Origin: a virus
DNA: 23,686 bases
Virus record (IMG/VR): IMGVR_UViG_3300045996_001876
Span: 1 to 23,686 of that record
Direction: 5' to 3' (one strand)
Positions within the stretch are counted from its first letter, which is position 1, and each line of letters opens with the position of its first letter. The notes below the pieces were generated by a model. That model did not search any database, had not been told where the DNA came from, and saw only the letters and a list, made by a program, of their open reading frames with translations. A program made the translations under genes and the position numbers. Positions 1,154 to 19,394 of the stretch are shown in pieces.

Positions 1154-1194
1154 AGCAGCCCCGCGCGGACCCCGGAAGATCGCGCGGGGCTGCT
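1154..1194 (+). terminator. intrinsic terminator of the upstream small-gene operon
   Basis: A perfect 14-bp GC-rich stem (AGCAGCCCCGCGCG at 1154-1167 with its complement at 1181-1194) encloses a 13-nt loop. It sits 35 bases after the last stop codon of the upstream operon. No strong T run follows, which is common for actinobacterial terminators. Confidence 0.75.
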
Positions 1195-1248: not shown

Positions 1249-1264
1249 TCGAACCTACGTTCGA
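1249..1264. promoter_or_regulatory. perfect LexA operator (SOS box)
   Basis: The sequence TCGAACCTACGTTCGA is a perfect dyad TCGAAC-N4-GTTCGA, identical to the consensus LexA operator of mycobacteria and related actinobacteria. It lies in a gene-free control region 147 bases ahead of the ATG of the 365-aa regulator and downstream of the hairpins that close the previous operon. A possible promoter overlaps it: TCGAAC 1249-1254 as a poor -35, a 16-bp spacer, and GATGAT 1271-1276 as a -10. Bound host LexA would cover this -35. The operator match is seen. LexA control of the downstream gene is inferred. Confidence 0.8.
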
Positions 1265-1410
1265 CGCTGGGATGATCGCTCAACTCGACGTTTACGTTTC
1301 AACATCTGTGGGAACTGGGGTGGAATATCACGCTAATGGACCAATGACGTTGTAACTCAGCGTGTTGACAGGCAACCTGGCGACTGAACGGAGCCGGGGA
1401 GCGTGACCAT
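1265..1410 (+). promoter_or_regulatory. gene-free promoter/leader region of the 365-aa regulator
   Basis: This stretch is richer in A/T than the coding DNA around it and contains no plausible gene. It holds a tandem ACGTTT repeat (1288-1299) and a consensus -35 TTGACA at 1365-1370. No convincing -10 hexamer lies 16-18 bases after that TTGACA. The ribosome-binding site GGGGAG at 1396-1401 precedes the ATG at 1411. The whole 1120-1410 gap also contains a small dyad CAGGT-AC-ACCTG at 1134-1145. Confidence 0.45.
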
Positions 1411-2508
1411 ATGGACGAAGACACCATCACCTGCGCCGTCGTCAGCTGCATCGCGCCCCTCGCGACACGCGGACTGCTGTGCATCACCCACACGCAGGAA
1501 CTTGAGACCGCACTACGGCGGATCGTCGCCCTCGAAGACGATCTCGACATCACCATCAGCCGCCAGGCCGTGCTCAACGAGCACACCGGTGGCGGCCGCC
1601 CGGCCGAACGCCCGCTGCCGTTCCACTGGGACGGCAGCGACACCCAGTGGACCCTGCGCAGCACCGCGACGCGCTGGGCCGAGGACGTCGCGGCCACGGC
1701 CGGCCGAACGATCAACTGGGACACCGTGCGCGTGCCGGCCCGGCCACGGCACGCCTGGGGCCACCGCGTCGCCCTGCCCGAGCGGACCGTCGAGAACGTC
1801 AACCCCCGCACCGGCGCGACCACCACGCTGACCCTGCCCGAGCTGCGCCACGACGACCCGGCCGCACTGCCCCACCGGCCCGGCCCCGCGGCCCGCGCGG
1901 CCACCTGGCTGCTCAAGCCCTACCGGCTCGACACCTACCCGCAGATCGCCCAGCTGTTCGACGAGATCACCTTCGTCGCCGGCCGGACGCAGCACGTCAT
2001 CGACCGGGCCCCGACCCGCTGGTACGCCGGCGGCTGCGACCTGTGCGGCACCGCGATGTACGGCCGCCCCGAGGCCGGCACGGTGCTCTGCCCGAACCCG
2101 GCCTGCGTGGTCGAGGTCCAGCCCGAGCACTGCAGCGTGCACGAGCGGCCTGGCCCCTGGTGCGACAGCCGCTGCGACATCACCGACCAGGTCCTCGCCC
2201 GCACCCGCTACGACCTGGCCGAGCGCCGGGCCTGGCTGCTCGACGCCGCCGAGGACTACCTCGCCACCGCCACCGAGGCCAGCCGCGCCGTCGCCCTGCT
2301 CGACGGCCACGAGATCAAGGCCGAGACCATCCGCACCTGGATGAGCCGCGGCGAGCTCGACGTGGACTACACCCACCCCGAGAACGATCCGAGGCTCAAC
2401 GCCCGGATCCGGACCAACCCTGACGGCTCGCCGCGACTCGTGGGTCGAGTGCGGCTGGGAGACGTCATCGCGAGAGCGCGGCGTGTTGCAGCACGGCCTG
2501 CCTCGTAA
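1411..2508 (+). CDS. zinc-finger/helix-turn-helix DNA-binding regulator
   Basis: This 365-aa soluble protein starts at an ATG preceded by GGGGAG. It has an N-terminal Cys/His cluster (C8, C13, C24, H27) and a zinc-ribbon-like pair (C209xxC212 with C227 and C232). Further His/Cys residues (H240, C241, H244, C251, C255) follow. A C-terminal helix-turn-helix of MerR/AlpA type spans about residues 286-316 (IKAETIRTWMSRGEL), followed by a short basic tail. It is the first gene after the SOS box and the only gene between that box and the late-gene leader, a position suited to a transcription regulator. I infer an activator or antiterminator of late genes. DNA binding is supported by the motifs, but the specific role is not shown. 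Confidence 0.65.
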   Translation: MDEDTITCAVVSCIAPLATRGLLCITHTQELETALRRIVALEDDLDITISRQAVLNEHTGGGRPAERPLPFHWDGSDTQWTLRSTATRWAEDVAATAGRTINWDTVRVPARPRHAWGHRVALPERTVENVNPRTGATTTLTLPELRHDDPAALPHRPGPAARAATWLLKPYRLDTYPQIAQLFDEITFVAGRTQHVIDRAPTRWYAGGCDLCGTAMYGRPEAGTVLCPNPACVVEVQPEHCSVHERPGPWCDSRCDITDQVLARTRYDLAERRAWLLDAAEDYLATATEASRAVALLDGHEIKAETIRTWMSRGELDVDYTHPENDPRLNARIRTNPDGSPRLVGRVRLGDVIARARRVAARPAS

Positions 2509-2532
2509 AGAGAGCTGCTTGACAGCCTCTCT
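2509..2532. promoter_or_regulatory. inverted repeat enclosing a TTGACA element
   Basis: AGAGAG (2509-2514) pairs with CTCTCT (2527-2532), extended by CTG/CAG (2515-2517 with 2523-2525) around one bulged C. The dyad starts at the base after the regulator stop and encloses a consensus -35 TTGACA at 2519-2524. No good -10 follows at 16-18 bp. This could be an activator-dependent promoter/operator or an RNA hairpin. Confidence 0.4.
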
Positions 2533-2590
2533 GACCTCGTGAAACGCTAGATGTCCGAGCCAGAGGTGTGCGTGTCAGCAGCCGCACGGG

Positions 2591-2620
2591 AGCCCCCGCA
2601 GTCCACAGGACGCGGGGGCT
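2591..2620 (+). terminator. leader terminator ahead of the late genes
   Basis: A perfect 9-bp stem AGCCCCCGC/GCGGGGGCT (2591-2599 with 2612-2620) has a 12-nt loop and is followed by TCGTGCTGTTC. It lies before the first downstream gene (ATG 2653), not after a gene, so it would stop transcripts coming from the 2519 region before the structural genes. This is the position expected of a regulated leader terminator. Confidence 0.65.
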
Positions 2621-4432: not shown

Positions 4433-4807
4433 GTGCCGCTGCGTCTGTGCCTGGACTGCGGAGTCATCGCCGAGGGCAGCCGCTGCCCGCAGCACGCGGC
4501 CGAGCGCGAACGGCAGCGCACCAGCGCGAAGCGGCAGCGCCGACCCGCCGCCGACCAGGCCGAGCGCGCACGCCGCGCCGCGGTGGTCGACGAGTGGGTG
4601 CGCACCCGCGGCTACGTCTGCCCCGGCTGGCGCCGCGAACCGCACGCCTCGGTCGACCTGACTGCGGACCACGTGGTCGCTGTCGCTGCTGGCGGTCGCG
4701 AGGACGGCGAGCTGGGGGTGCTGTGCCGTGCCTGCAACGGCAGCAAGGGAGCCAGAGGCGCACCCGAGGGGCCGACCTGCGGTGCTGATCGTCGCTCGAC
4801 GAGCTGA
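4433..4807 (+). CDS. HNH endonuclease
   Basis: GTG 4433 follows GGAGGTG (4422-4428). This 124-aa nuclease has an N-terminal zinc knuckle (C6xxC9 with C18xxH21), a basic linker rich in Arg/Ala, and a C-terminal HNH core. The core has Cys63, TADHVVAVAAGG with catalytic His80, and LCRACNGSKG with C98xxC101-N102. HNH proteins next to terminase genes help the terminase cut DNA at the cos ends in HK97-type phages. The position directly before the terminase genes fits that role, with the presumed recognition region lying just downstream. Confidence 0.88.
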   Translation: MPLRLCLDCGVIAEGSRCPQHAAERERQRTSAKRQRRPAADQAERARRAAVVDEWVRTRGYVCPGWRREPHASVDLTADHVVAVAAGGREDGELGVLCRACNGSKGARGAPEGPTCGADRRSTS

Positions 4808-4824
4808 TCCGACGCAGTGAGCAA

Positions 4825-4867
4825 CCCTCTGACCTGCGGTTACGCAGAGGGGGTGGGGGGTCTTTTT
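4825..4867 (+). terminator. hairpin followed by T5, first tandem unit
   Basis: CCCTCTG (4825-4831) pairs with CAGAGGG (4845-4851), followed by a G-rich stretch and TTTTT at 4863-4867. It may terminate transcription after the HNH gene, but the T run is 11 bases from the stem, so it is a weaker candidate than the next one. Confidence 0.4.
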
Positions 4868-4887
4868 CCGTTCTGACCTGCGGATAC

Positions 4888-4915
4888 GGGACCCCGCTAA
4901 AGGGTGCCTTTTTTT
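4888..4915 (+). terminator. intrinsic terminator with T7 run before the terminase genes
   Basis: GG-G-ACCC (4888-4894) pairs with GGGT-G-CC (4902-4908), with one internal G-G mismatch and a 7-nt loop. TTTTTTT at 4909-4915 follows immediately. A run of seven T is rare in DNA this GC-rich. The element ends about 55 bases before the small terminase start. Confidence 0.5.
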
Positions 4916-4970
4916 CTGTACGGGTCTGGGGATTTTCGACCCACCTGCGAGCTGACCGGGGGTGATCGCC

Positions 4971-5552
4971 GTGGCCGGCATGGGGCCTGCACCGACTGGG
5001 AACGCCAGGCGCCGCAACTCCGCGCCCACGTTCACCCAGCTCCCCGCCGAGGGGCGCGACGCGCCGCCACCTGTGTGGCCACTCGGCCCAGACGTCCACC
5101 TGCAGGCACGCCTGCAGGTCCAGCTCGGCAAGGTCGACCGCCTGGAGTGCGCCGAGGCTGACGGCAAAGACGTCGAGGCGCAGCTCGATCGGGCGCGTGA
5201 GCAGGTCCTCGTGCTGCAGCACACGATCCGGATCCAGGCCGAGGCCGAGGCCGAGCTGTGGGCACAGCTCTGGGCCACGCCCCAGGCCGTGCAGTGGGAG
5301 CGCCTGCGGTGGATCCGCGACGTCGCGCAGTACACCCGCTGGAAAGTGCTCGGCGAGGCCGGCGACCTCAAGTCCAGCCAGGAGGCGCGGCAGCTCGGCG
5401 ACCGGCTCGGCCTCACCCCGCTGGCCATGCTGCGGCTGCGCTGGCAGGTCGTAGCCGACGAGGTCGGCGAGCAGCGCCAGACCAAGAAGACCACTGCGCG
5501 CAAGACGCCGGCGCGGCGGCCGCGGCTCAAGGCCGTCGATCCCGGCACCTGA
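4971..5552 (+). CDS. terS: terminase small subunit
   Basis: GTG 4971 was chosen because CCGGGGGTGATC lies just ahead and because the resulting start (MAGMGPAPTGNARRRNSAP) matches the usual N-terminus of actinophage small terminases. GTG 4962 is in frame but adds atypical residues. The 193-aa protein then has the typical LPAEGRDAPPPVWP segment, long helices (residues ~50-160) and a basic Lys/Arg C-terminal tail (KKTTARKTPARRPRLK). It recognises packaging sites and loads the large terminase. It is directly upstream of the large subunit gene and downstream of the repeat region it may bind. Confidence 0.82.
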   Translation: MAGMGPAPTGNARRRNSAPTFTQLPAEGRDAPPPVWPLGPDVHLQARLQVQLGKVDRLECAEADGKDVEAQLDRAREQVLVLQHTIRIQAEAEAELWAQLWATPQAVQWERLRWIRDVAQYTRWKVLGEAGDLKSSQEARQLGDRLGLTPLAMLRLRWQVVADEVGEQRQTKKTTARKTPARRPRLKAVDPGT

Positions 5553-5573
5553 CCAGCGAGCCGGGGGTGAACC

Positions 5574-7238
5574 GTGCCCTGGCGAGGACCACAGGAAGAG
5601 GGGGAGTTCCCGACCCTGGGCTACGCGATCGGCGAGTGGATCGAGGCCCACTGCATCATCCCGGACGGCCCGAAGCTCGGACAGCCGTACCTGCTCACCG
5701 ACGAGATGTGGCTGCACCTGCTTTGGTCCTACCGGCTACACCCGGACGCGCCCGGCGACGCAGCCGCTGACGCGCACTACTACCGCGGCGACCAGCTGGT
5801 GCGCCCACAGAAGTGGGGCAAAGACCCGTTCAACGCCGCACGCTGCAGCGCGCACGCCCTGGGCCCCGTGCAGTTCGGCGGCTGGGACGCCCAGGGCGAG
5901 CCGGTCGCGGTCCCGCACCCCTCGCCCTGGGTCGGCATCGCCGCGACCACCGAGACGCAGACGGACAACACCTTCCGGCCGCTTTACACGATGCTGACCG
6001 AGGGCCCGCTCGCCGACACACCTGGCCTCGACGTGGGGCTGGCGGAGATCAAACTCCCCGGTGTCGGGTGGATCGACCCGCTGACCAGCTCGGCGAGCGG
6101 CAAGCTCGGCGGCCGCTTCACCTACGTCAGCCTGACCGAACCAGGGTTGCTCGTCGGCACCGGTCGCACCGGCGGAGTCACGTTCGCGAGAGTGCTCAAG
6201 CGCAACGTCGGCGGCATGAACGGCATGTGGTCGGAGATCACGAACCCGTGGGATCCGACCGAAAACTCCGCGTCCCAGCTGACCTACGAGGCCAAGGCCC
6301 CCGACGTCTACATCAACTTTCGGCAGCCCCGGCGCCGGGTGGAGCTCGCCGACACCGAGGCCGTGCTCCGCGAGATCATCTACCTGTACGGCGACTCGAT
6401 CCGCGACCGCGGCGGCTGGGTCTCCCCGAAGCGGATCCTGGCCGACGTCCAAGACTCCGCAGCCGGTGAGGCCGAAGTCCGCAGGTTCTTCCTGCAGGAG
6501 ATCATCGGCGGCACCCGGTCGGCAGTTACCGAGGAGCGCTGGCGGGCGCTCGCCCGCACCGACGATCCGCTGCGGCCCAAGGAGTCCGTAGCCCTCGGGT
6601 TCGACGGTTCGCGCTCGCGCGACGCCACAGCGATCCGGATCTGCCGCCTGCGCGACGGCCGGCTGTTCCACGGTCGCGTGTGGATCCCCGAGGACCACGG
6701 CGGCAAGGTGCCACGCCTGCAGGTGCACCAGGCATTCCTCGACTACTTCGAGGTCTACGACGTCCACGTGGTGTTCGCCGACCCCTACAAGTGGCAGGAG
6801 TACCTCGACGTCTGGTCGGGCCTGTGGCCGAACAAGATCGTCGAGTTTCCGACGAACGTTGAGCGCCGCATGGACGAGGTCGTGCAGCGGTTCCTCACCG
6901 GTGTCGACTCCGGCGAGCTGACCCATGACGGCAACGAGTTGTCCACCCGGCACGCGCTGGACGCCGCGCTGGTCAAGGGCAAGCGCAAGCCCGGCCGCGA
7001 GGGCGACGAGAAGGACGGCGTCCCGCAGCACTACCTGTCGGTGGGCAAGAAGCGGTCCGATGCGCTGATCGACGACTTCGTCGCCGGCCTGCTCGCCGGA
7101 CACGCCCGCGGCTACGCGATCGAGCACGGTGCCCTGGTCGCCGACAACGCCCCGCCGGCGGCCGTGCGCGTCGAGCAGACCAGCGACGCGACACCGCACA
7201 ACTTCTGGCGCCCGAGTGGCCGCCTCGATCTTGGATGA
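5574..7238 (+). CDS. terL: terminase large subunit
   Basis: GTG 5574 follows GGGGGTGA. This 554-aa packaging motor is of the HK97 Terminase_1 type. The N-terminal ATPase domain carries an atypical Walker A at residues 78-85 (PQKWGKDP), as in other actinophage terminases. The coupling segment is RFTYVSLTEPGLLVGTGRTGG. The C-terminal RNase H-like nuclease has Asp344 (GFDGSRSRDATAIR), Asp403 (VVFADPYKWQEYLD) and an Asp in SDALIDDFVAGLL (496-501). It cuts concatemeric DNA and translocates it into the prohead through the portal encoded downstream. Length is normal and the frame is intact. Confidence 0.93.
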   Translation: MPWRGPQEEGEFPTLGYAIGEWIEAHCIIPDGPKLGQPYLLTDEMWLHLLWSYRLHPDAPGDAAADAHYYRGDQLVRPQKWGKDPFNAARCSAHALGPVQFGGWDAQGEPVAVPHPSPWVGIAATTETQTDNTFRPLYTMLTEGPLADTPGLDVGLAEIKLPGVGWIDPLTSSASGKLGGRFTYVSLTEPGLLVGTGRTGGVTFARVLKRNVGGMNGMWSEITNPWDPTENSASQLTYEAKAPDVYINFRQPRRRVELADTEAVLREIIYLYGDSIRDRGGWVSPKRILADVQDSAAGEAEVRRFFLQEIIGGTRSAVTEERWRALARTDDPLRPKESVALGFDGSRSRDATAIRICRLRDGRLFHGRVWIPEDHGGKVPRLQVHQAFLDYFEVYDVHVVFADPYKWQEYLDVWSGLWPNKIVEFPTNVERRMDEVVQRFLTGVDSGELTHDGNELSTRHALDAALVKGKRKPGREGDEKDGVPQHYLSVGKKRSDALIDDFVAGLLAGHARGYAIEHGALVADNAPPAAVRVEQTSDATPHNFWRPSGRLDLG

Positions 7239-7251
7239 GAGGACGGCCGTC

Positions 7252-7542
7252 GTGGTCACCATCCGCATTCCCGCGCCCCCCAGAGGGGCCGTGTCCAACG
7301 CACTCGGCCTGGCCGGTGTGACGGGCCTGGCCGTGGCTTCCGGGGGCCTGGTGGGCAACTGGTGGCTCAGCGGCCTGGTCGCATCGCTCGTGCTGATCGG
7401 CATGGCGGCCGTGGCCCACTACGGCCAGGCCGACGAGCACCAGGCCGTCGACGTCCCCGCGGCCGCGCCCAACGCCGGCGTCGACCAGACCCGCGCCGAG
7501 CGCCGCCGTCCCCACGACATCGACCTGACAGCGGGGGACTGA
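7252..7542 (+). CDS. small membrane protein between terminase and portal
   Basis: GTG 7252 follows GAGAGGA. Upstream, the frame would run inside the terminase gene, so this start is preferred. The 96-aa product has two hydrophobic segments (ALGLAGVTGLAVASGGLVGN and WLSGLVASLVLIGMAAVAHY) joined by a very short turn. This suggests a helical hairpin in the membrane. A polar, acidic-to-basic C-terminus follows. A membrane protein in the packaging block is unusual. A superinfection-exclusion role is possible, but the function is unknown. Confidence 0.6.
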   Translation: MVTIRIPAPPRGAVSNALGLAGVTGLAVASGGLVGNWWLSGLVASLVLIGMAAVAHYGQADEHQAVDVPAAAPNAGVDQTRAERRRPHDIDLTAGD

Positions 7543-7543
7543 C

Positions 7544-8980
7544 GTGGCCAGCTTGTTCTTCCCCCCGGCCCGCGGCCGCCCGGCCCGCGCGAGCGAGGCC
7601 AGCCCGGCGCAGATCGCCGCGACCGGAGCGCACGGTGCCGGCGGGTACGGCGTCGACCCGGTCGACGGCGACACCGGCTGGCAGCGCACCGGTGGCGGCC
7701 CGCGCGAGGTCCCCGTCTACACCCGCGAGAAGGCGCGCACGTTCTCGATCGCCGCCTACCGCTACAACCCGATGGCACGGGCGATCATCGACACCTACAC
7801 CTCGTTCTGCGTCGGCGACACCGGCGTGCAGGTTGAGGCCAGCAACCCGGAGGTGCAGCGCCACGCGGACCGGTTCTGGACCGACCCGCGCAACCGACTC
7901 GGCGAGCACCAGGAGTTGATGTTCCGCGACGGGCTGCTCAACGGGGAGCAGCTCCTGGAGCTGATGACCGGCGAGCTGTCCGGCGTGGTGCGGTACTGCC
8001 CGGTCGACACCAGCGCGATCACCGAGATCACCAACCTCGGCGGCAACCCGCTGTGGCCGGAACACGCGCACTTCCGCGAGGACTCGATCCCGCTCGTCGG
8101 AGTCGACGACCGCACGGGCCTGCGCACCGGCAGGGCGCTGTGGTGGGCGCCGTGGAAGACCACGCTGAGCGACACCCGCTCGCAGCCGTTCCTGTCCACC
8201 GTCGTGGACTGGCTCGACTCCTACGACACGATCATCTCCAACCTCATCGACCGCACCGCGCTCGCGCGCTACATCGTGTGGGACGTCGAGGTCGAGGGCA
8301 CGCAGGACGACGTCGACGCCTACGTCAAGGCGCGCGGCGGCACCCGGATCCCCCGGTCCGGCACCGTCGAGGTCCACAACCACAAGGTCAAGTGGAACCC
8401 CAAGGTCGCGCAGACCGGCGCGTACGAGGACAGCGCGGCCGCGCGCAACGTGCTCACCCTCGCGGCCGCCGGATCTGGCCTGGCGAAGACCTGGCTGGCT
8501 GATCCCGAGGACAGCAACCGGGCCACGTCGCTGAGCATGGCCGAGCCGGTGCGCCGCCGCGTGCAGGGCGTCCAGAAGCTGTGGTTGGCCCACCAGACCG
8601 AGCTGGTGCGCTACGCCGTCGATCAGGGCGTGCGCGCCCGGCGCCTGCCCGCGCTCGTCGACAGCGTCGACTCCCGCACCGGCGCCCGGTTCCAGATCCC
8701 CGCGGCCGAGGCCGTGCGGGTCCAGGGCCCCGAGGTCGCGGCCGCCGACGCGCAGATCACCGCCCAGGTCCTGCTCAACCTGTCCACCGGCCTGGAGAAG
8801 CTCGTCGAGCAGCGCCTGCTCTCCCGCGAGGGAGCCAGCCTCGCCGCCCGGCGCGCCTGGGAGTCCTACATGGGCGTGCCCTACGTCGCCGAGCTCGACA
8901 GCGGCGACACCGACCGCGACGAGATCGCCGACCACGTCGACAGCACTCAGGTATCCACGGCCGAGCCCGGCGACGCCTGA
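7544..8980 (+). CDS. portal protein
   Basis: GTG 7544 starts one base after the previous stop, and GCGGGGGA lies just upstream. The 478-aa protein has the typical portal order. First comes an N-terminal helical segment (YNPMARAIIDTYTSFCVGDTG), then a stem/wing region with FRDGLLNGEQLLELMTGELSG and VVRYCPVDTSAITEI. The clip and crown part is rich in helices (SRTGARFQIPAAEAVRVQGP, QITAQVLLNLSTGLEKLVEQRLLS). The C-terminal WESYMGVPYVAEL and acidic tail are also typical. It forms the dodecameric ring at one vertex, docks terminase and later joins the adaptor. Order terL - portal - protease/capsid supports it. Confidence 0.88.
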   Translation: MASLFFPPARGRPARASEASPAQIAATGAHGAGGYGVDPVDGDTGWQRTGGGPREVPVYTREKARTFSIAAYRYNPMARAIIDTYTSFCVGDTGVQVEASNPEVQRHADRFWTDPRNRLGEHQELMFRDGLLNGEQLLELMTGELSGVVRYCPVDTSAITEITNLGGNPLWPEHAHFREDSIPLVGVDDRTGLRTGRALWWAPWKTTLSDTRSQPFLSTVVDWLDSYDTIISNLIDRTALARYIVWDVEVEGTQDDVDAYVKARGGTRIPRSGTVEVHNHKVKWNPKVAQTGAYEDSAAARNVLTLAAAGSGLAKTWLADPEDSNRATSLSMAEPVRRRVQGVQKLWLAHQTELVRYAVDQGVRARRLPALVDSVDSRTGARFQIPAAEAVRVQGPEVAAADAQITAQVLLNLSTGLEKLVEQRLLSREGASLAARRAWESYMGVPYVAELDSGDTDRDEIADHVDSTQVSTAEPGDA

Positions 8981-9020
8981 CCCCCACCACCCGAACCACA
9001 CCCCCGAGGGGAGTTTCGCC

Positions 9021-9488
9021 ATGCCCGAAATCCGCGAGCAGGTCGCCCAGGCCCTCGGGGCGAAGGACCGCGAGATCGTCGAGATCCAGTACACGTCGGA
9101 GCTGTCTGGCTACCTGGTGACCCTGCACGACGACTCGGTGCTGCTCGTCACCGACGAGGGCTCTGTCATCTACCCCGTCCCCACACGCACCATCATCGGC
9201 GAGCACGGTCCGGAGCTCTGGTTCCCCGACGAGGCCGTTAACGGGGAGACCTCGCCGCCGGCCGATCTGGACGCCGCGCTGATGCTGTCGCCCGCCGACT
9301 CGGTGCAGGCCGCTGTGCTCAGCGCCGCCGACATCGTCCCGGTGGGCACGGTCGAGGTCGTGCTCGCCTGGGTCGGCGAGGACCAGGACCGTGCACGCCG
9401 CGCCCTGGCGGCCGAGAACGAGCGCGACAAGCCGCGCGCCGGCGTCACCGCGGTCCTGCAGCTCCTGGTCGACGGCGGTGACGAGTGA
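9021..9488 (+). CDS. hypothetical 155-aa head-region protein with a GExGPELWFP motif
   Basis: ATG 9021 follows GAGGGGAG. The N-terminal half alternates like a beta-rich domain (LSGYLVTLHDDSVLLVTDEG, TRTIIGEHGPELWFPDEAV). The C-terminal third (VGTVEVVLAWVGEDQDRARR) is the helical segment often found in actinophage proteins next to the portal. The motif GEHGPELWFP strongly resembles the GEQGPELIFP motif near the end of this phage's tape measure protein (18297-18326), which is unexpected in a head gene. It overlaps the start of the capsid fusion gene by four bases. The function is unknown. Confidence 0.7.
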   Translation: MPEIREQVAQALGAKDREIVEIQYTSELSGYLVTLHDDSVLLVTDEGSVIYPVPTRTIIGEHGPELWFPDEAVNGETSPPADLDAALMLSPADSVQAAVLSAADIVPVGTVEVVLAWVGEDQDRARRALAAENERDKPRAGVTAVLQLLVDGGDE

Positions 9489-11899
9489 GCGCCCCGAACA
9501 CCAGCGCCGCGGCCGAGGCCCTCGTCAACGGCGCGCGGTCCTACAGCGACCGCAGCGAGCTGGTGCGCCGCGCCCTGCGGCAGCGCCTGCAGCTCGAAGC
9601 TGGAGACGGCTACTGCTGGGTCTGGCCGGTCGACCTCACCGACACTGACGTGGTCTACGAGGTCGGCGACCAGCTCTGGCAGTGCGGCTACACGATCGCC
9701 GACGACGGCGAGGTCACCCTCGGCGCGCCGGTCAAGGTCGCCCGGTCCTACGTGGTCGTCGCGGCCGCCGAGGAGGACGCCGTCGAGCTGTCCAGCGCGA
9801 TGGAGTCCGCCCAGCGCGGTGAGCGCGATCACCTCGTCGGACACGTCCTGGAGGCCAAGGCCGCCACGTCGAGCAGCGGCGGCCGCCAGTTCCGCGTGCG
9901 GATCATCGCCGTGGGCGACTCGCTCAACGGGAACAGGTACCCCGAGGCCGTGCTCGCGGCCGCTGTGGGCCTCTACGAGGGCGCCCAGGCGTTCAACCGC
10001 CACCGCACCCCGGAGGAGCTGCACAGCGGCACCACCGAGGGCCTGGTCGGCTACTACCGCAACGTCGTGGCCTCGGCCGAGGGCCTCGACGCCGACCTGC
10101 ACCTGCTGCCCAGCGCCACCGCCACGGCCGAGGCCCTGGACGCCGCGCTCGCCGTCCAGGCGGACGGGCTGAGCACCGGCGTCGGCATCTCCCACGACGT
10201 GCTCGGAACTTTCCGCGCCGTCACCGAGAACGGCCAGTCCGTCCGCGAGGCCACGGCGATCACCCACGTGTTCAGCGCCGACGTCGTCAGCGCACCGGCC
10301 GCTGGAGGCATGGCGCACCGCGTCGTCGCCGGTGGCATCCACATCGACCTGGCCTCTGACCAGCAGAAGTCACGTCCCCTCCAGCCCGCGCGTGCGGGAG
10401 AGACCACCGAGGAGTCCCGCATGTCCGCTCCCACCCCGTCCCCCGAGGCCCTGGCGGCCGCGCTCGCCGCGCTGAGCCCCGAGCAGCTCTCCGCCGCTGG
10501 TCTGCAGCGCACCGGCGAGTCCGCCGCGGCCGCCGTGCCCGCGCAGCGCGCCACCGAGGCCGAGCTGTCGTTCCCCAAGACGGGGTTCGTCGCCCGCACC
10601 ATGATCTCGGCGGCCGTGGCCGAGGCCGGCCTGCCCGCCGCGCTCGTCCCCGACCTGACCGCGGCGCTGCCCGAGCAGGTCACCGAGTCGGTCGTCGCCG
10701 CGCAGCTCGCCGTGCTGCAGCGCGCCGTCGAGGCCGTCGAGCGCGAGGGCCTCACCCCGCGCACCGCGAGGACCGAGGTGACGCAGGAGGCCCACGACAA
10801 GAAGGTCCAGGCCCTCGACGACTTCTTCACGCCGAACAAGGCCGGCGGCTACCGGTCGTTCAAGGAGGCGTTCGTCGACTTCACTGGCCGCGCGCCCAAG
10901 GCGTTCGACGAGGACTTCAACCGCACCATCCTGCGTGAGAGCCTCGGCATGACCGGCAGCTACGACTCCGCGCGGGCCTCGGAAGGGCTGGACACGACGA
11001 GCTGGGCGCAGATCCTCGGCGACTCGGTCACCCGGCGCATGGTCGCCGAGTACGCCCGGCCGAACCTGCAGACCTGGCGCATGATCGTCAGCTCGACCCC
11101 GAGCGTGAACGACTTCCGGGACCAGAAGATCGACAGGATGGGCGGGTACGGGACGCTGCCGACCGTCGCCCAGGGCGCGGCCTACACGGCGCTGACCAGC
11201 CCCACCGACGAGGAAGCCACCTACGCGCTGACCAAGCGCGGCGGCACCGAGGCGATCACGTTCGAGATGATCGCCAACGACGACGTCCGCGCGATCAGCC
11301 GGATCCCGGTGAAGCTGGGCCTGGCCGCCGCGCAGACCCTCTACCGGTTCGTGTGGGGGATGCTGCCCGCGAACGCCGCGACCAGCTACGACGCGGTCGC
11401 GCTGTTCCACGCCTCGCACGCCAACACCGACGTGTCCTCGCCGCTGTCGCAGTCCACGCTCGCCGTGGCACGGCGCAAGATGGGCGTGCAGGCCGCCTAC
11501 GGCGACGCCTCCGACGTGCTGTCGATCGAGCCCGCGTTCCTGGTCGTGCCCGCCTCGCTGGAGGAGCAGGCGTACAAGCTCTGCACCTCGGCCGTGGCGG
11601 TGCCGGCGTCCGGTGAGTCCTCGGACATGCCGAACATCAACCAGGGCCTCACCCCGATCAAGGTCCCGTACTGGACGGACCAGGACGACTGGTTCCTCAT
11701 CGCGGACCCGGGCCTGTGCCCGACGATCGAGGTCGGCTTCTACCAGGGCCAGCAGGAGCCGAGCCTGTTCACGCAGGCCGACCCGAGCGTCGGCTCGGTG
11801 TGGGACACCGACAAGATGCAGCTCAAAATCCGCCACATCTACTCCGGCACCGTGCTGGAGCACCGCGGCATGTACCGCGGTGTCGGCGGCGCGAGCTGA
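9485..11899 (+). CDS. capsid maturation protease - scaffold - major capsid fusion
   Basis: GTG 9485 overlaps the previous stop (GTGA). The 804-aa polyprotein has three parts. Residues ~115-290 form a prohead protease: RIIAVGDSLNGNRYPEAVL, a candidate catalytic His173 in FNRHRTPEE, and a candidate Ser in GLSTGVGIS (230-236). Residues ~313-435 form an Ala/Glu-rich helical scaffold. Residues ~440-804 are the major capsid domain: FNRTILRESLG, NDFRDQKIDRMGGYGTLPT, LFHASHANTDVS, IRHIYSGTVLEHRGMYRGV. An in-frame start at 10421 probably makes scaffold-capsid alone. Cleavage by the protease would release the mature capsid subunit. Separate genes are the commoner arrangement. Confidence 0.88.
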   Translation: MSAPNTSAAAEALVNGARSYSDRSELVRRALRQRLQLEAGDGYCWVWPVDLTDTDVVYEVGDQLWQCGYTIADDGEVTLGAPVKVARSYVVVAAAEEDAVELSSAMESAQRGERDHLVGHVLEAKAATSSSGGRQFRVRIIAVGDSLNGNRYPEAVLAAAVGLYEGAQAFNRHRTPEELHSGTTEGLVGYYRNVVASAEGLDADLHLLPSATATAEALDAALAVQADGLSTGVGISHDVLGTFRAVTENGQSVREATAITHVFSADVVSAPAAGGMAHRVVAGGIHIDLASDQQKSRPLQPARAGETTEESRMSAPTPSPEALAAALAALSPEQLSAAGLQRTGESAAAAVPAQRATEAELSFPKTGFVARTMISAAVAEAGLPAALVPDLTAALPEQVTESVVAAQLAVLQRAVEAVEREGLTPRTARTEVTQEAHDKKVQALDDFFTPNKAGGYRSFKEAFVDFTGRAPKAFDEDFNRTILRESLGMTGSYDSARASEGLDTTSWAQILGDSVTRRMVAEYARPNLQTWRMIVSSTPSVNDFRDQKIDRMGGYGTLPTVAQGAAYTALTSPTDEEATYALTKRGGTEAITFEMIANDDVRAISRIPVKLGLAAAQTLYRFVWGMLPANAATSYDAVALFHASHANTDVSSPLSQSTLAVARRKMGVQAAYGDASDVLSIEPAFLVVPASLEEQAYKLCTSAVAVPASGESSDMPNINQGLTPIKVPYWTDQDDWFLIADPGLCPTIEVGFYQGQQEPSLFTQADPSVGSVWDTDKMQLKIRHIYSGTVLEHRGMYRGVGGAS
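10409..10423 (+). promoter_or_regulatory. internal ribosome-binding site and start for scaffold-capsid
   Basis: GAGGAG at 10409-10414 lies six bases upstream of ATG 10421-10423, in frame with the fusion gene (codon 313). The product would be 492 aa beginning MSAPTPSPEALAAAL, close in style to the full-length start MSAPNTSAAAEALVN. The boundary falls exactly between the protease domain and the helical scaffold, as with lambda C and Nu3. Confidence 0.65.
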
Positions 11900-11904
11900 C
11901 CGGA

Positions 11905-11937
11905 CGGGCCCGCGTGCACCTGGTGCGCGCGGGCCCG
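11905..11937 (+). terminator. terminator hairpin after the capsid gene
   Basis: CGGGCCCGCGTGCAC (11905-11919) pairs with 11923-11937 in a 15-bp stem containing one G-T wobble, with a 3-nt loop, followed by CTGCTGTCC. It begins five bases after the capsid stop. Such an element after the capsid gene lowers downstream expression, giving an excess of capsid message. Confidence 0.75.
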
Positions 11938-11977
11938 CTGCTGTCCCCTCCCACACCAGCAGGCAGGAGGCCCTGCG

Positions 11978-12265
11978 ATGGGCAGTCATCTCCGGTCCGT
12001 GGCCCTCACCGGCGCCACCCAGACCGTGCGCACCGCCGAGACGATCTACCGGGGGTTCACGCTCCGCGAGACCGGCGGCACGGAGCCCGCAGTGGTGCGG
12101 ATCTTCGACGCCACCAGCGCCACCGGCGTGCTGCTCGACAGCGTCGCCCTGGAGGCCGGCACGTCCCTGTCGGTGACCTACCCCGCGGGGATCTGGGCGA
12201 CCACCGGCGTGCACGTCGAGATCACCGGCACCGGCGTCGTCGAAGGATCCCTCCGGATCGAGTGA
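11978..12265 (+). CDS. small beta-rich head protein, possible decoration protein
   Basis: ATG 11978 follows AGGAGG, a near-perfect site, 40 bases after the terminator hairpin. The 95-aa product is rich in Thr/Val/Ala with alternating beta strands (SVALTGATQTVRTAET, FTLRETGGTEPAVVRIFD, GVHVEITGTGVVEGSLRIE), typical of small beta-barrel proteins. Its place directly behind the major capsid gene is where decoration or head-stabilising proteins are usually coded. A role on the capsid surface is inferred from position and fold type only. Confidence 0.6.
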   Translation: MGSHLRSVALTGATQTVRTAETIYRGFTLRETGGTEPAVVRIFDATSATGVLLDSVALEAGTSLSVTYPAGIWATTGVHVEITGTGVVEGSLRIE

Positions 12266-12279
12266 GCAGGAGGTCCGCT

Positions 12280-12471
12280 GTGACACGACGTCCCTGCAGG
12301 CTGCTGCAAGTCGGCAAGGACGACGACGGCACCTGGTCCTGGTTCTGCCGCCGCTGCCGCCGACGCGAGTCCGGCCTGAACCGGCCGCGCGCCCTGCGCC
12401 GAGCCGAGGAACACCTCGACGTGCACGAGACGTTCGGGCTGCGGCCCCTCAGGGAGGTGTCCTCGTGCTGA
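12280..12471 (+). CDS. 63-aa C2H2-like zinc-finger protein in the head operon
   Basis: GTG 12280 follows AGGAGGT, and the gene overlaps the start of the adaptor gene by seven bases. The product has C23xxC26 and H45xxxH49, a C-x2-C-x18-H-x3-H pattern. A very basic segment (CRRCRRRESGLNRPRALRRA) lies between and around the ligands, with an amphipathic helix carrying the histidines. This suggests a single zinc finger able to bind nucleic acid. It sits in a purely structural block. The function is unknown. Confidence 0.65.
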   Translation: MTRRPCRLLQVGKDDDGTWSWFCRRCRRRESGLNRPRALRRAEEHLDVHETFGLRPLREVSSC

Positions 12472-13418
12472 TCCGCGTGGCACGCACCGCGGCCGCGGTG
12501 CTGGAGCACCGCTTCCAGGTCGGCGAGACGGCCGTCGAGGTCGACCCGTCGACCTCGGTCACCGTCGCGCTCGTCGACGCCAACGGCGTGCCGGTCACCT
12601 CCGGCGCCGCCACGGCCGAGGGCAACGCGTACTCGTTCCCGCTGCCGCCGCAGGCCCAGCTCACCGAGCTGACGGCGACCTGGACCGGCACGATCGACGG
12701 CAACGCCGTGGTCGAGGTCGACCAGGTCGAGATCGTGGGCGCGCACTACTGGAGCATCGCCGAGGCCCGCGCCTCCGACGCCACGCTGGCCAACGCGCAG
12801 AAGTACCCGGCCGCCGACCTGCTGGCCACCCGCGTGGAGGTCGAGCAGGAGTGCGAGCGGATCTGCGGCCGCGCGTTCGTCCCGCGCTACCGGCGCGCGG
12901 TCCTCGACGGCACCGGCACCACCGAGCTGCTGCTGCCCGATCCGGACGTGCGCCGCATCCGCGCCGTGCGCCTGGCCCCGCGCGTGGACAGGCCGTTCGT
13001 GGCCCTCACCGAGGCGCAGCTCGCCGCGCTCGTCGAGCGCGGCGACCGGGTGCTGCGCCGCGTCGACGGCTCGGTGTGGACCGAGGGCTACGCCAACGTG
13101 GTCGTCGAGTACGAGCACGGGATGAACGCCCCGCCCACCGACCTGCTGCGCGCCACGAAGCAGCGCTTGCGCCACCGTCTGAACATGCAGATGTCGGCGA
13201 TCCCGGACCGCGCGGTGTCCTACTCCACCGAGGGCGGCGCGACCTACCGGCTGTCCACCCCGGACGCCTACTCCACCGGCATCCCGGACATCGACGCCGT
13301 CTACAGCGGATGGTCCCTGCGGCCGAGCAGCGACGGCAACGGCCAGTCCGGACCGGCCTCGCGCAGCCTGAACTTCGACCCGCAGCGACACTCGTTGTTC
13401 CACGGAGGTGAGCGATGA
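12465..13418 (+). CDS. head-tail adaptor (connector) with N-terminal Ig-like domain
   Basis: GTG 12465 lies within the end of the zinc-finger gene, and GGGAGGTGT is upstream. The first ~90 residues form a beta-rich Ig-like domain (VEVDPSTSVTVALVDANGVP, TELTATWTGTIDGNAVVEVD). The remainder is like gp6-type adaptors: an N-terminal helix (ADLLATRVEVEQECERICG), a YRRAVLDGTGTTELLLPDPD strand core, VVVEYEHGMNAPPTDLLRAT, and a C-terminal flexible tail. It binds beneath the portal ring and connects head to tail. The stop overlaps the next ATG by four bases. Confidence 0.78.
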   Translation: MLIRVARTAAAVLEHRFQVGETAVEVDPSTSVTVALVDANGVPVTSGAATAEGNAYSFPLPPQAQLTELTATWTGTIDGNAVVEVDQVEIVGAHYWSIAEARASDATLANAQKYPAADLLATRVEVEQECERICGRAFVPRYRRAVLDGTGTTELLLPDPDVRRIRAVRLAPRVDRPFVALTEAQLAALVERGDRVLRRVDGSVWTEGYANVVVEYEHGMNAPPTDLLRATKQRLRHRLNMQMSAIPDRAVSYSTEGGATYRLSTPDAYSTGIPDIDAVYSGWSLRPSSDGNGQSGPASRSLNFDPQRHSLFHGGER

Positions 13419-13867
13419 GCGGGACGAACCTCGTGGCGATCAAGCGCGCCGTGTTCGAGCGCTTGGCCGCCGCGCAGCAGCTCGCAGACATGGGCGCCGA
13501 GGTCGCCTACGCGTTCAACCCCCGGTCCCAGCCCCGGATCTACGTCTACCTGGGCGCGGGCACCTTCGAGCAGGAGTACATCACCCTGCGCGGCGGAGGC
13601 AACCGCGTGCCGCGCGAGGAGGTCGCGTTCATCTCGGCCTACGTCGAGGTGTGGGAGCCGGGCAGCAACATGCTCGACCTCGACCAGCAGGCCGTCGAGA
13701 TGGGCACGGTGCTGGAGGAGATCCTCGCCGCCGACGCGAACCTCGACGACCTGCCTGGGGTGGTCTACGGCGGTGTCAGCGGCGGCGACCTGGTCCAGGA
13801 GCACACCGACTCAGGCGCCGGCGTGACGCTGGAGTACCGGCTGCGCTTCGTCTCACGCCTCAACTGA
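13415..13867 (+). CDS. tail terminator protein
   Basis: ATG 13415 overlaps the previous stop (ATGA). The 150-aa protein begins with a helix (VAIKRAVFERLAAAQQLADM). Beta strands follow: RIYVYLGAGTFEQEYITLRG, and RVPREEVAFISAYVEVWEPG with the Glu-Glu pair that usually precedes the strand. A second helix (LDLDQQAVEMGTVLEEILAAD) and a C-terminal strand (GVTLEYRLRFVSRL) complete the alpha/beta order of gpU-like tail terminators. It would cap the tail tube and fix its end. No separate head-closure protein is recognised, so this gene could alternatively fill that role. Confidence 0.65.
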   Translation: MSGTNLVAIKRAVFERLAAAQQLADMGAEVAYAFNPRSQPRIYVYLGAGTFEQEYITLRGGGNRVPREEVAFISAYVEVWEPGSNMLDLDQQAVEMGTVLEEILAADANLDDLPGVVYGGVSGGDLVQEHTDSGAGVTLEYRLRFVSRLN

Positions 13868-13886
13868 GTCCCCACCCCACGTCATC

Positions 13887-13918
13887 ACCAGCCCCGGCCG
13901 TGCGCGGTCGGGGCTGGT
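13887..13918 (+). terminator. terminator hairpin after the tail terminator gene
   Basis: ACCAGCCCCGGCCG (13887-13900) pairs with CGGTCGGGGCTGGT (13905-13918), 14 bp with one G-T wobble, around the tetraloop TGCG. It is followed by CCCGTCTGC. It lies 20 bases after the stop and 21 bases before the next start, and would partially separate head and tail expression. Confidence 0.75.
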
Positions 13919-13938
13919 CCCGTCTGCAGGAGGCAGCC

Positions 13939-14130
13939 GTGTCCGTGCGACGCATCGTCTACCTCGGTCCGCACGCGGAGGTCTCCATCCCGGCCCTGGC
14001 CGGTGTGGTCGTCCAGCGCGGCGTGCCGATCTCCACCGCCCCCGACCTCACCGAGCGACTGCTGCGCCAGTCCACCTGGTCCGAGGTCCCCACGCCCCCC
14101 AAGACCAAGGCCAAGGAGGTGACGAGCTGA
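13939..14130 (+). CDS. hypothetical 63-aa protein between tail terminator and tail tube
   Basis: GTG 13939 follows GCAGGAGGCAGCC, a strong site directly behind the terminator hairpin. The protein (VRRIVYLGPHAEVSIPALAG, then VVVQRGVPISTAPDLTERLL) reads as a small beta-rich domain, ending in a Lys-rich tail (PPKTKAKEVTS). Similar short proteins commonly precede the tail tube gene in actinophages and have no established role. The stop overlaps the tail tube start by one base. Confidence 0.65.
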   Translation: MSVRRIVYLGPHAEVSIPALAGVVVQRGVPISTAPDLTERLLRQSTWSEVPTPPKTKAKEVTS

Positions 14131-15101
14131 TGGGCATCCCCAGCGGACTCGCCGCGCAGGTCGGCGCCGCCGACGAGACGGTCTACGGCACCCCCGCCGA
14201 GGCCAGCAAGTTCTTCGAGTTCATCCAGGAGAGCCTCAAGCTCGACGTCAAGCGGATGGAGTCGGCGGCGATCCGCGCCGGAACCCGCGTCATGCGCTCC
14301 GACGACTGGCTGCCCGGCGAGCGCGCCGTGGCCGGCTCGCTGGACCTGGAGCTGAGCACCAAGGGCCTCGGGTTCTGGCTCGGGCACTCGTTCGGCAGCG
14401 TGGTCACCAGCCAGCCCGACGTCGGCGCCTCCCCCACCGTCTACAAGCACACGTTCGTCCCCGGTGACCTGCCGGGAACGTTCACCGTGCAGGTCGGCCG
14501 GCCCACCACCGCGGGCGTCGTCGAGCCGTTCACCTACACCGGGTGCCAGGTGAAGGACTGGGAGCTGGGCGTCGACGTCGGCGGCATCGCCACGCTCAAG
14601 CTCGGCATCATCGGCCGCGACGAGCTGCTCACGGAGGACCTGGCCGAGCCGGTCTACCCCACCGGCAGCACGCTGCTGTCGTTCGTGCGCGGCACCGTCA
14701 CAGTCGGCGGCTCCCCCTCGTCCATCAAGAAGTTCTCGGTGAAGGGCGTCACCGGCCTGGACGACGCGCGCTACGCGATCGGCAGCGCCCTGCGCGACGA
14801 GCCGCTGGAGAACGACCTGCGCGACATCAGCGGCTCCTTCGAGGCCGAGTTCGACAGCACCGTCGACTACGCCCGGTTCGTCGCCGGCAGCGAGGCCGAG
14901 ATCGTGCTGGAGCTGCAGGGACCGGTGATCGAGGACGCGATCCGCTACAGCATCAAAATCACGCTGAACGCCCGGTTCGACGGCGAAACGCCCAGCGTCG
15001 GGGACCGGGGCGTCGTGCAACGCAGCGTGCCGTTCAAGGTCGTCGACAACGGCACCCTGTCGGCGCGCGTGGAGTACACGACCACCGACGTCCTGCCGTA
15101 G
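14130..15101 (+). CDS. major tail tube protein
   Basis: ATG 14130 overlaps the preceding stop (TGATG). The 323-aa protein starts GLAAQVGAADETVYGTPAEA, typical of tail tube proteins. It continues with beta-strand-rich stretches (SLDLELSTKGLGFWLGHSFG, FTYTGCQVKDWELGVDVGGI, GSFEAEFDSTVDYARFVAGS) and ends SARVEYTTTDVLP. It forms the hexameric ring stack of the siphovirus tail. Order is consistent: after the tail terminator and before the chaperones and tape measure. Length is at the upper end of the usual range. Confidence 0.85.
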   Translation: MGIPSGLAAQVGAADETVYGTPAEASKFFEFIQESLKLDVKRMESAAIRAGTRVMRSDDWLPGERAVAGSLDLELSTKGLGFWLGHSFGSVVTSQPDVGASPTVYKHTFVPGDLPGTFTVQVGRPTTAGVVEPFTYTGCQVKDWELGVDVGGIATLKLGIIGRDELLTEDLAEPVYPTGSTLLSFVRGTVTVGGSPSSIKKFSVKGVTGLDDARYAIGSALRDEPLENDLRDISGSFEAEFDSTVDYARFVAGSEAEIVLELQGPVIEDAIRYSIKITLNARFDGETPSVGDRGVVQRSVPFKVVDNGTLSARVEYTTTDVLP

Positions 15102-15113
15102 GACCGGCCCGTC

Positions 15114-15677
15114 GTGGCGCGCCGCATCGCAGGCACGGAGGACTTCACCCGCCTGGCGCGCGACCTCAAGGCTGCCGGCACCACCGGCAAGGGTCTGCGC
15201 CGCGAGCTGGGCAAGGCCCTGCGCAAGGGCACCGCACCGCTGGTCGACGAAGCGCGCCGCAACGTGCAGGGCCTTGAGGTCCGGGGCGTGCGCGGCGGCG
15301 CGTCAGCCCGCGCCGCTCGCGCCGCCCGCGCTCTGGGCAAGCGCAAGCGCGTCACCGACAAGGCCCGGATGCGAGCGCACCGCGGCTCTGGCCTGCGCGC
15401 CACAGTCGCCCGCTCGGTGTCCGCAACCGTCGACACCGGCGGCGCGACAGCACGCCTGCGCGTGCGCGCCGCCCAGGCCAAGATGCCTCCCGACCAGCGC
15501 AAACTGCCCCGCTACCTGAACAGGGGCAGCTGGCGGCATCCGGTGTTCGGCCGCGACCCCTGGGTCGAGCAGACCGCACCGCCCGCCTGGTTCGACGACG
15601 CCGGCGCACGCAAGGGCCCGCAGGTCCGCGACAACGCCGTCCAGGTCGTCGGCGAGTACCTCGGAAAGTTGCTCTGA
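15114..15677 (+). CDS. HK97 gp10-like tail completion/minor tail protein
   Basis: GTG 15114 starts 12 bases after the tail tube stop. The 187-aa product is strongly basic, with an N-terminal helical region (LARDLKAAGTTGKGLRRELG) and an Ala/Arg-rich basic segment. A C-terminal core (LPRYLNRGSWRHPVFGRDPW, then VEQTAPPAWFDDA) is characteristic of gp10-like proteins. These link tail tube and head-proximal end. It lies downstream of the tube gene, whereas in HK97 the gp10 gene lies upstream. Confidence 0.68.
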   Translation: MARRIAGTEDFTRLARDLKAAGTTGKGLRRELGKALRKGTAPLVDEARRNVQGLEVRGVRGGASARAARAARALGKRKRVTDKARMRAHRGSGLRATVARSVSATVDTGGATARLRVRAAQAKMPPDQRKLPRYLNRGSWRHPVFGRDPWVEQTAPPAWFDDAGARKGPQVRDNAVQVVGEYLGKLL

Positions 15678-15699
15678 GACAACAGAAGGAAGGGTTGGC

Positions 15700-16050
15700 A
15701 TGGCCACGCTCACGCTCAAGGACGTGGGGGAGTTCCCGTTCGACCGAACGCGGCTCACCAACGTCGAGGCCCTGCTGCTGGAGAAGGTCTCCGGCCGCCG
15801 CCTCGCCGACATCGTCGAGGACTTCAACGAGCGCAAGGGGCCTCTGGGGCTCACCGCGTTCCTGTGGCTGGCCATGCGCCGCGCCGGTCACCACGTGGCC
15901 TACACCGAGTTCGAGTTCAACATCGCCGATGTGGTCTACGACCTCAGCGACGAGGACGTCGACGCCCGCCCGCCGGCGGAGGTGACGCCGGACCCTCCGG
16001 CCGCCGCCGCAGCGTCGGCGCGAAAGAGGGCTGGCTCGAAGCCGAGCTAG
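15700..16050 (+). CDS. tail assembly chaperone (gpG-like)
   Basis: ATG 15700 follows AGAAGGAAGGG, a good site. The 116-aa protein has a compact N-terminal half (TLTLKDVGEFPFDRTRLTNV, EALLLEKVSGRRLADIVEDF), a helical middle (GLTAFLWLAMRRAGHHVAYT) and an Ala/Pro/Lys-rich tail (DPPAAAAASARKRAGSKPS). This is the G-type chaperone that binds the tape measure during tail assembly. The tail is the expected site of a -1 frameshift into the next frame, producing the longer GT form. Confidence 0.82.
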   Translation: MATLTLKDVGEFPFDRTRLTNVEALLLEKVSGRRLADIVEDFNERKGPLGLTAFLWLAMRRAGHHVAYTEFEFNIADVVYDLSDEDVDARPPAEVTPDPPAAAAASARKRAGSKPS

Positions 16051-16184
16051 CCCTCTACCGCGCGCGGTTCTGGCTGCACCTGCACACCGACCCGCGGCGG
16101 CTGGACGAGCTGACCCACCACGACTACCTCCTGGGTCGCGACCTGATCGACGCGATCGAGACGGCACGGCAGCAGGGGAGGTGA
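16026..16184 (+). CDS. frameshift extension of the chaperone (gpT-like)
   Basis: This region in the -1 frame has no start of its own that makes sense. It encodes a gpT-like segment (LEAELALYRARFWLHLHTDP, then RRLDELTHHDYLLGRDL). It would join the upstream chaperone by a -1 slip near 16021-16027 (codons CGA AAG, where AAG can re-pair as AAA). The fused product would be about 161 aa: 109 residues in the first frame and 52 in the second. The slippery sequence is not a perfect X-XXY-YYZ heptamer, so the exact slip site is an inference. Confidence 0.6.
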   Translation, partial: EGWLEAELALYRARFWLHLHTDPRRLDELTHHDYLLGRDLIDAIETARQQGR

Positions 16185-16190
16185 TCCCCG

Positions 16191-18521: not shown

Positions 18522-19384
18522 TGGCGGCCGAGGTCCTCACGTGGATCGACCCCGACGGCACCGAGCTGGAGCTGTACGTCGACTGGAACGTCAACGGCCG
18601 GTTCATGCCTCCGGTCTCCTACGAAGAGGGGACCGTGCCCGGCCAGCCCGGTGCCCGGTTCCGCTCGGTCCGGCACGGGCCGCGCGACTTCGTGCTTCCC
18701 GTCCGGATCGCCGATCAGGACCCGGCGGTGCTGCGCACCCTGCTGCGCAGCGTCGTGCGATCGATGGACCCGACCCGCGGTGCCGGCCGGATCCGGGTGG
18801 CCAGCCCGGCAGGTGACCAGCGCGAGATCACCTGCCGGTACGTCTCCGGCCTGGAGATGCCCGAGCGCCTGGGCGACACCAGCGGCCCCGGTGTGCAGTG
18901 GGCGTCCCCGGTGTTCCGCGCCCACGACCCCTACTGGGCCGACGTCGCCGACACCGTCGACCTGTTCGGCCTCGGCGCCCGGCCGTCGTTCTTCCCGTTC
19001 TTCCCGCTGCGGCTGAGCCGGTCCTCCGTGTTCGCGGAGGCCAGCGTCATCAACGGCGGCGACGTCGCCACCTGGCCGGTCTGGCAGATCACCGGCCCCG
19101 GCAGCATCATCTCCGCCCGCAACCTCACCACCGGCAGGTCCTGGACGCTGAGCCTCGCCCTGGGCGCGGGTGAGCGGATCTACGTCGACACCAGGCCAGG
19201 CCGCAAGACCGCGCGCCTGAACGACCCCGTCGACGGGGTCAGCGTGTTCACCGCCTTCACGGCCATGCCGAGCCTGTGGCCGCTGGCCCCCGGCAACAAC
19301 GCGCTCCGGATCGAGATGTCCTCCGCCGTCAGCGGCCAGTCCGAGGTGCAGCTGGCACGCCGGCACCTGTACCTGAGCGCGTGA
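18521..19384 (+). CDS. distal tail protein (Dit)
   Basis: ATG 18521 overlaps the tape measure stop (TGATG). The 287-aa protein begins with a beta-strand domain (TWIDPDGTELELYVDWNVNG). The typical Dit core follows: GQPGARFRSVRHGPRDFVLP, VRSMDPTRGAGRIRVASPAG and FRAHDPYWAD. A galectin-like C-terminal domain follows (ATWPVWQITGPGSIISARNL, SLALGAGERIYVDTRPG). It forms the ring at the tail tip and holds the hub and receptor-binding proteins encoded next. Confidence 0.85.
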   Translation: MAAEVLTWIDPDGTELELYVDWNVNGRFMPPVSYEEGTVPGQPGARFRSVRHGPRDFVLPVRIADQDPAVLRTLLRSVVRSMDPTRGAGRIRVASPAGDQREITCRYVSGLEMPERLGDTSGPGVQWASPVFRAHDPYWADVADTVDLFGLGARPSFFPFFPLRLSRSSVFAEASVINGGDVATWPVWQITGPGSIISARNLTTGRSWTLSLALGAGERIYVDTRPGRKTARLNDPVDGVSVFTAFTAMPSLWPLAPGNNALRIEMSSAVSGQSEVQLARRHLYLSA

Positions 19385-19394
19385 GGGGGCACCG

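Follow-up and report, generated by a model that had tools for sequence, protein, structure and literature searches.

Phage genes are known to be controlled directly by LexA in GIL01, CTX, 186 tum, N15, and SaPI operon I (PMC4551915 and references therein). LexA control of phage genes in an actinobacterium has been shown via ChIP-seq in Streptomyces venezuelae, where the motif is tCGAAC-N4-GNNCGa with an unconstrained spacer, ChIP-seq-supported LexA boxes occur at positions -157 to -182 from start codons, some of them before strongly induced prophage genes, and prophage genes are among the most strongly induced LexA targets, responding strongly to mitomycin C (PMC9380542). Apart from the model mycobacteriophages, little is known about DNA-damage sensing by actinobacterial prophages.

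Here, we analyzed a stretch of 23,686 nucleotides (the window; positions 1 to 23,686 of the IMG/VR record IMGVR_UViG_3300045996_001876) from a contig of 27,297 bases that is phage throughout where annotated, and in which a perfect SOS box precedes a gene that is probably a late-gene regulator. Our literature searches, with subscription papers mostly outside their reach, found no actinophage in which a late regulator is preceded by a LexA box. As LexA is already known to control phage genes, we take the target and the position described here to be a new variation on this control.

The SOS box and its conservation in related phages

The sequence TCGAACCTACGTTCGA at positions 1249 to 1264 (no strand assigned) is a perfect TCGAAC-N4-GTTCGA dyad, and the motif scan bears out the exact consensus match claimed in the sequence-only reading. 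This is the only site in the window with fewer than two mismatches; four further sites match with two. When the 291-nt intergenic region from 1120 to 1410 was shuffled with its dinucleotides preserved, a perfect box appeared in one of 20,000 shuffles, and in five the best match had one mismatch. The box starts 162 nt 5' of the ATG at 1411 and lies in a true intergenic gap, 3' of a hairpin at 1154-1194.

Close orthologues of the product of gene 1411-2508, a member of the family phrog_908, are encoded by four further phages and share 44-55% identity with members of the set. These are IMGVR_UViG_3300010045_000001 (L040, also L119), found by a TerL search; a phage of Lentzea sp. NBRC 102530 (L118), found by a protein-alignment scan of genomes; IMGVR_UViG_3300045996_002019 (L172), found by a protein-alignment scan; and IMGVR_UViG_3300003972_000019 (L167), found first by its DNA motif alone. 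Comparison of the box position in related prophages, a check proposed together with the initial reading, places the box at the same spot before the same gene in all four close orthologues. The core CGAAC-N4-GTTCG is intact in the five phages, with the box starting at -162 from the ATG in the window and at -157, -174, -174, and -173 in the relatives, while the spacers vary (CTAC, TAAG, GCGT, GCGT, and ACTT), as does most of the neighboring sequence. For the three relatives found via protein homology alone, the shuffles place the core no more than 20 nt away from -162 at frequencies of 1.25e-4, 1.0e-4, and 0.5e-4. No other box with one mismatch or less is present in the L040 record, the L167 record, or the whole Lentzea contig.

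A composite pattern, GCTAC-N6-GTA-N2-9-TCGAAC-N4-GTTCG, was scanned blind over 2.9 million IMG/VR viral contigs and gave four hits, of which two (L167 and the already known L040 phage) precede a phrog_908 gene. The remaining two, L168 and L169, are not before such a gene and were set aside as chance-like. The distant phrog_908 loci that were checked, in Gordonia and Rhodococcus phages, in Pseudonocardiaceae, and on other viral contigs, have no box with one mismatch or less before the gene. This makes the box a feature of the window lineage and not of the phrog_908 family. Among the candidates rejected, a two-mismatch site in L125 lies further upstream, within or adjoining the neighboring coding region, and a three-mismatch site in L037 is as expected by chance. 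A first single-protein scan of the viral contigs with the 1411-2508 product gave no match, and it took the TerL query and later alignments to find relatives. The host-family search returned remote phrog_908 members only, a class-wide sample of 395 genomes contributed no additional close relative, and no close relative of the window lineage turned up in the phage collection searched.

Host LexA boxes and the layout of the control region

The genome of the actinobacterial host, 3,428,888 bases with the prophage included, contains three perfect boxes, against none for a reversed control motif, and 27 boxes against 10 when one mismatch is allowed. One of the three perfect sites is the phage box, and the remaining two, at C34:8514 (before a small adjacent gene) and C34:9714 (directly before the gene of a dnaE2-like error-prone DNA polymerase), belong to a canonical SOS locus. 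Four boxes with one mismatch each lie 150-280 bp upstream of the host lexA gene (C99:34355; TIGR00498 score 248.6 bits, cut-off 111). For recA (C99:52919-53704, minus strand), GCGAACACGTGTTCGA is located about 175 bp upstream of the domain match. Since the same motif stands before host lexA, recA, and dnaE2, the host LexA very probably reads TCGAAC-N4-GTTCGA, as judged from these sites. A perfect box lies about 260 bp upstream of the Lentzea lexA gene, so a second identified host appears to read the same motif. The phage spacers CTAC and TAAG are unlike the ACAC/ACAT-like spacers of the host's own boxes, which counts against the explanation as a LexA operator. Taken on its sequence context, the site at 1249-1264 is strongly supported as a putative host LexA box placed to control 1411-2508. 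Of the initial claim that LexA controls a phage regulator, it is this placement that stands, based on the host SOS genes with the motif and on the position kept in five diverged phages.

Upstream of the box, the G+C hairpin at 1154-1194 (plus strand) is terminator-like, has no U run, and separates the early genes on its 5' side from the control region; the consensus terminator scan missed it because it lacks a T run. The segment 1151-1200 folds at -35.7 kcal/mol, and hairpins at the same place have values of -46.6 in L040 and -40.2 in L167, the fold in L118 being weaker. An Rfam search of the window gave no match. A second dyad, GCTAC-N6-GTAGC, lies just 5' of the box at 1228-1243 (no strand assigned). 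In each of the five phages, its GCTAC-N6-GTA part precedes the box by 18-26 nt, and the exact 9-base form occurs in the window at 1228-1243 only. In Lentzea, an extra exact copy of this dyad (GCTACCGGGCAGTAG, L118:7621) is located 5' of the hairpin.

Five blocks are conserved in the control region: the dyad, the box, a [T/G]ATCG block, a CGTTTCA/CAATGG region, and a TTGTCACGC block, two of which could belong to promoters. The [T/G]ATCG block follows the box at offsets of 10, 10, 11, 11, and 21 in the five phages, and in the window it provides a possible -10 element, GATCGC, at 1274-1279 (plus strand; TATCGG or TATCGT in relatives). If it serves as the -10, 9-20 nt after the box, the box would cover the -35 region. 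The consensus promoter scan called no promoter in the control region, and the weakness by consensus of the putative box-adjacent promoter was counted against our best explanation. A possible second, proximal promoter may lie at 1350-1378 (plus strand), with TTGTAA in the window and TTGTCACGC in the four relatives, within a TTGT-AC block conserved in all five phages (window form TTGTAACTC). This promoter-like TTGTCAC block is about 85-100 bp 3' of the box and was likewise counted against LexA repression. The effect of LexA would depend on which promoter is used: a LexA dimer at -162 would repress the box-adjacent one but perhaps not the proximal one, and it would be in a poor position to block transcription if the TTGTCAC block were the sole promoter. 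We dropped a PafBC-type interpretation of this block, as the TAnnnT that should accompany it is missing.

A candidate late-gene regulator and its putative target

The genes of the window are ordered as early genes, hairpin 1154-1194, control region, 1411-2508, and then late genes. Gene 1411-2508 (plus strand) encodes a 365-aa protein that matches PHROG 908 (E=1.4e-24) and has an N-terminal C-x4-C-x10-C-x2-H cluster, a middle C-x2-C...C-x4-C cluster, and a C-terminal MerR/Xis-like HTH. This layout agrees with the initial description of the box as being in the control region of a zinc-finger/HTH gene. Cysteines 8, 13, 24, 209, 212, 227, and 232 (numbering of the window protein) are invariant and common to 11 homologues. 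The family member of a Gordonia phage is annotated as "MerR-like HTH". Confidence in the AlphaFold model is moderate (pLDDT 73, pTM 0.48), and a Foldseek search with it found no PDB match (best E 0.48). The product has no Pfam or NCBIfam match, PHROG 908 has no assigned function, and no recognized family in Pfam, NCBIfam, or PHROG ties phrog_908 to a known late regulator or to a Q/antiterminator.

The family member of the Rhodococcus phages Sleepyhead and Whack and of Gordonia phages lies toward the end of the rightward early operon, as one of its last genes, and near the right end of the genome; a RuvC-like/Holliday-junction resolvase gene stands directly or shortly before it. The end of the early operon near the right end of the genome is the position of the late-gene regulator in many phages. 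The product of 1411-2508 is probably a late-gene regulator, as its HTH, its gene position, and the conserved promoter directly 3' suggest; the initial claim that the gene is a phage regulator holds to the extent that these features imply it.

The putative target of this protein is a promoter-like element, TTGACA-N6-CTGACC, at 2519-2547 (plus strand), which is conserved in the relatives and is a candidate late promoter, perhaps with a regulator site in its spacer. TTGAC-N6-9-CT(G/C)ACC or a similar sequence is directly 3' of the phrog_908 gene in the window, L040, L118, L167, and L172, and the strict form TTGA[AC]-N6-9-CTGACC was counted at about eight distinct sites across 1.28 Mb of retrieved loci, with five of these sites 3' of a phrog_908 gene, including those of Sleepyhead and Whack. 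Beyond the element come a short conserved stretch (in most, AGCTNTGCC), a G+C hairpin, and finally the late genes. The hairpin of the window, at 2591-2620 (plus strand), is tR'-like and folds at -30.6 kcal/mol, and a matching inverted repeat is found at its place in L118, L167, L172, and L040, the folded stretch of L040 being off-center. Pfam and PHROG matches identify the late genes (HNH, TerL, portal, capsid, and tail genes) at 4433-20549 (plus strand).

Several further observations were made in these regions. TTGA-N6-9-CTGACC is also present 3' of phrog_908 genes in distant actinophages, at L154:3490 and L155:4231. In Lentzea, the phrog_908 gene, the promoter-like element, and the hairpin form a tandem duplicate (L118:7971-10400), with the promoter/hairpin copies at L118:9001-9130 and 10270-10400, one after each gene, and the SOS box before the first copy only. 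Among the late genes, 9485-11899 encodes a capsid protein of 804 aa that matches Phage_capsid_4 over its C-terminal third and head-maturation protease/capsid PHROGs over a longer stretch; it resembles a fused protease and capsid, and its best matches in the phage collection are outside the actinophages. Gene 4962-5552 (196 aa), between HNH and TerL, matches phrog_226 "minor tail protein" and, weakly, Pfam Terminase_7; it is probably the small terminase, so the phrog_226 label may be wrong.

Proposed mechanism, alternatives, and known systems

We consider it likely that a host LexA operator represses the promoter of 1411-2508 and that the product is a late regulator which acts at 2519-2547 and opens the late genes. 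In the lysogen, LexA bound at 1249-1264 would keep 1411-2508 off. DNA damage would lead to RecA-stimulated self-cleavage of LexA, which would free the promoter and allow the 1411-2508 protein to be made, and this protein would act on 2519-2547, either by activation or by read-through of the hairpin at 2591-2620. The packaging, head, and tail genes would then be transcribed, and DNA damage would directly release the late program. This is our best explanation of the box, its conservation at a fixed position, the host SOS boxes, and the order of gene, promoter, and hairpin, all of which are observed, and from which we infer LexA binding, repression, and the function and mode of the late regulator. 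On a broader scale, we tentatively suggest, as a possibility that may well prove incorrect, a temperate actinophage lineage in which the late regulator has been shifted from the early operon to its own LexA-controlled unit, host SOS directly licensing late transcription via a Q-like, unrelated zinc-cluster/HTH protein at a CTGACC-bearing promoter.

The initial reading had gone further, proposing that lytic growth is tied to DNA damage without needing repressor cleavage. This part goes beyond what the sequence supports: the immunity system of the window phage lies off the contig, and the relatives carry a GntR/UTRA regulator (phrog_10724), together with an integrase and an Xis-like HTH protein, in a region that the contig of the window phage does not include. 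The phrog_10724 gene is upstream of a replication gene at L118:2255-3061 and L119:781-1617. Targeted domain searches of the relatives' contigs found no cI-type repressor among the genes searched, which are part of the gene set, and the GntR/UTRA protein is possibly the repressor of the related phages in place of a cI-type protein.

The site could be a LexA operator and the gene not a late regulator, acting instead as, for instance, an antirepressor or an excision or replication factor, so that SOS would work on the lysis-lysogeny switch. Most known LexA-controlled phage genes are in fact antirepressors (186 tum, N15, and Gifsy, as cited in PMC4551915), and a family with no assigned function leaves room for such a role. 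We regard it as unlikely, however, given that the gene adjoins the late operon, that it follows resolvase genes in other phages, and that a conserved promoter and hairpin are immediately 3' and were duplicated along with the gene in Lentzea. The box probably acts on a late regulator and not on the choice between lysis and lysogeny as such.

It is also conceivable, although improbable, that the dyad merely resembles a LexA box and is the operator of a phage-encoded regulator, such as the GntR/UTRA protein or the gene's own product. The spacers unlike those of host LexA sites, the second conserved dyad, GCTAC-N6-GTA, adjoining the box, and the GntR/UTRA regulator of the relatives would all fit such an operator, whereas the identity of the motif with the boxes of host lexA, dnaE2, and recA and of Lentzea lexA, its absence from the more distant family members examined, and the lack of more copies near GntR or replication genes argue for LexA. 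That the match is a functionless coincidence is scarcely credible: a 12-base match is possible in large collections, but its position is shared by five diverged phages, and three independent relatives each have a shuffle frequency of about 1e-4.

Our preferred reading, a LexA operator before a late regulator, gives phrog_908, whose function was so far unassigned, a late-regulator hypothesis and a candidate target promoter, and it presents a conserved, testable candidate LexA operator in a phage lineage. The sequence of regulator gene, promoter with a conserved spacer element, hairpin, and late genes is similar to that of Q, pR', and tR' in lambda, a likeness drawn here from sequence only; lambda Q itself is without direct LexA control, and no sequence relation of the 1411-2508 product to Q was found. 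In 186 (Tum), N15 (AntC), the Salmonella Gifsy/Fels antirepressors, and SaPI operon I, a single LexA-controlled promoter couples induction or packaging to SOS, in a manner to which our locus can be likened, but the target here is probably a late regulator; it is not a known antirepressor, nor is it directly a packaging operon. In GIL01 of Bacillus thuringiensis, host LexA with gp7 at SOS boxes directly represses phage transcription (PMC4551915), as is predicted here. GIL01, however, is a tectivirus that does not integrate, its lysogenic promoter P1 contains several boxes, and a LexA co-factor is required (PMC4551915), whereas the window lineage is integrase-bearing and siphophage-like, with one box and a candidate late regulator. 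The S. venezuelae prophage targets vnz_21525/21545/21550 (PMC9380542) share with our locus an actinobacterial LexA, the 16-bp motif, and a similar distance from the start codon; they are a tail-fiber gene and hypothetical genes, while the box described here precedes a conserved HTH/zinc-cluster gene before the late operon, kept in a defined lineage.
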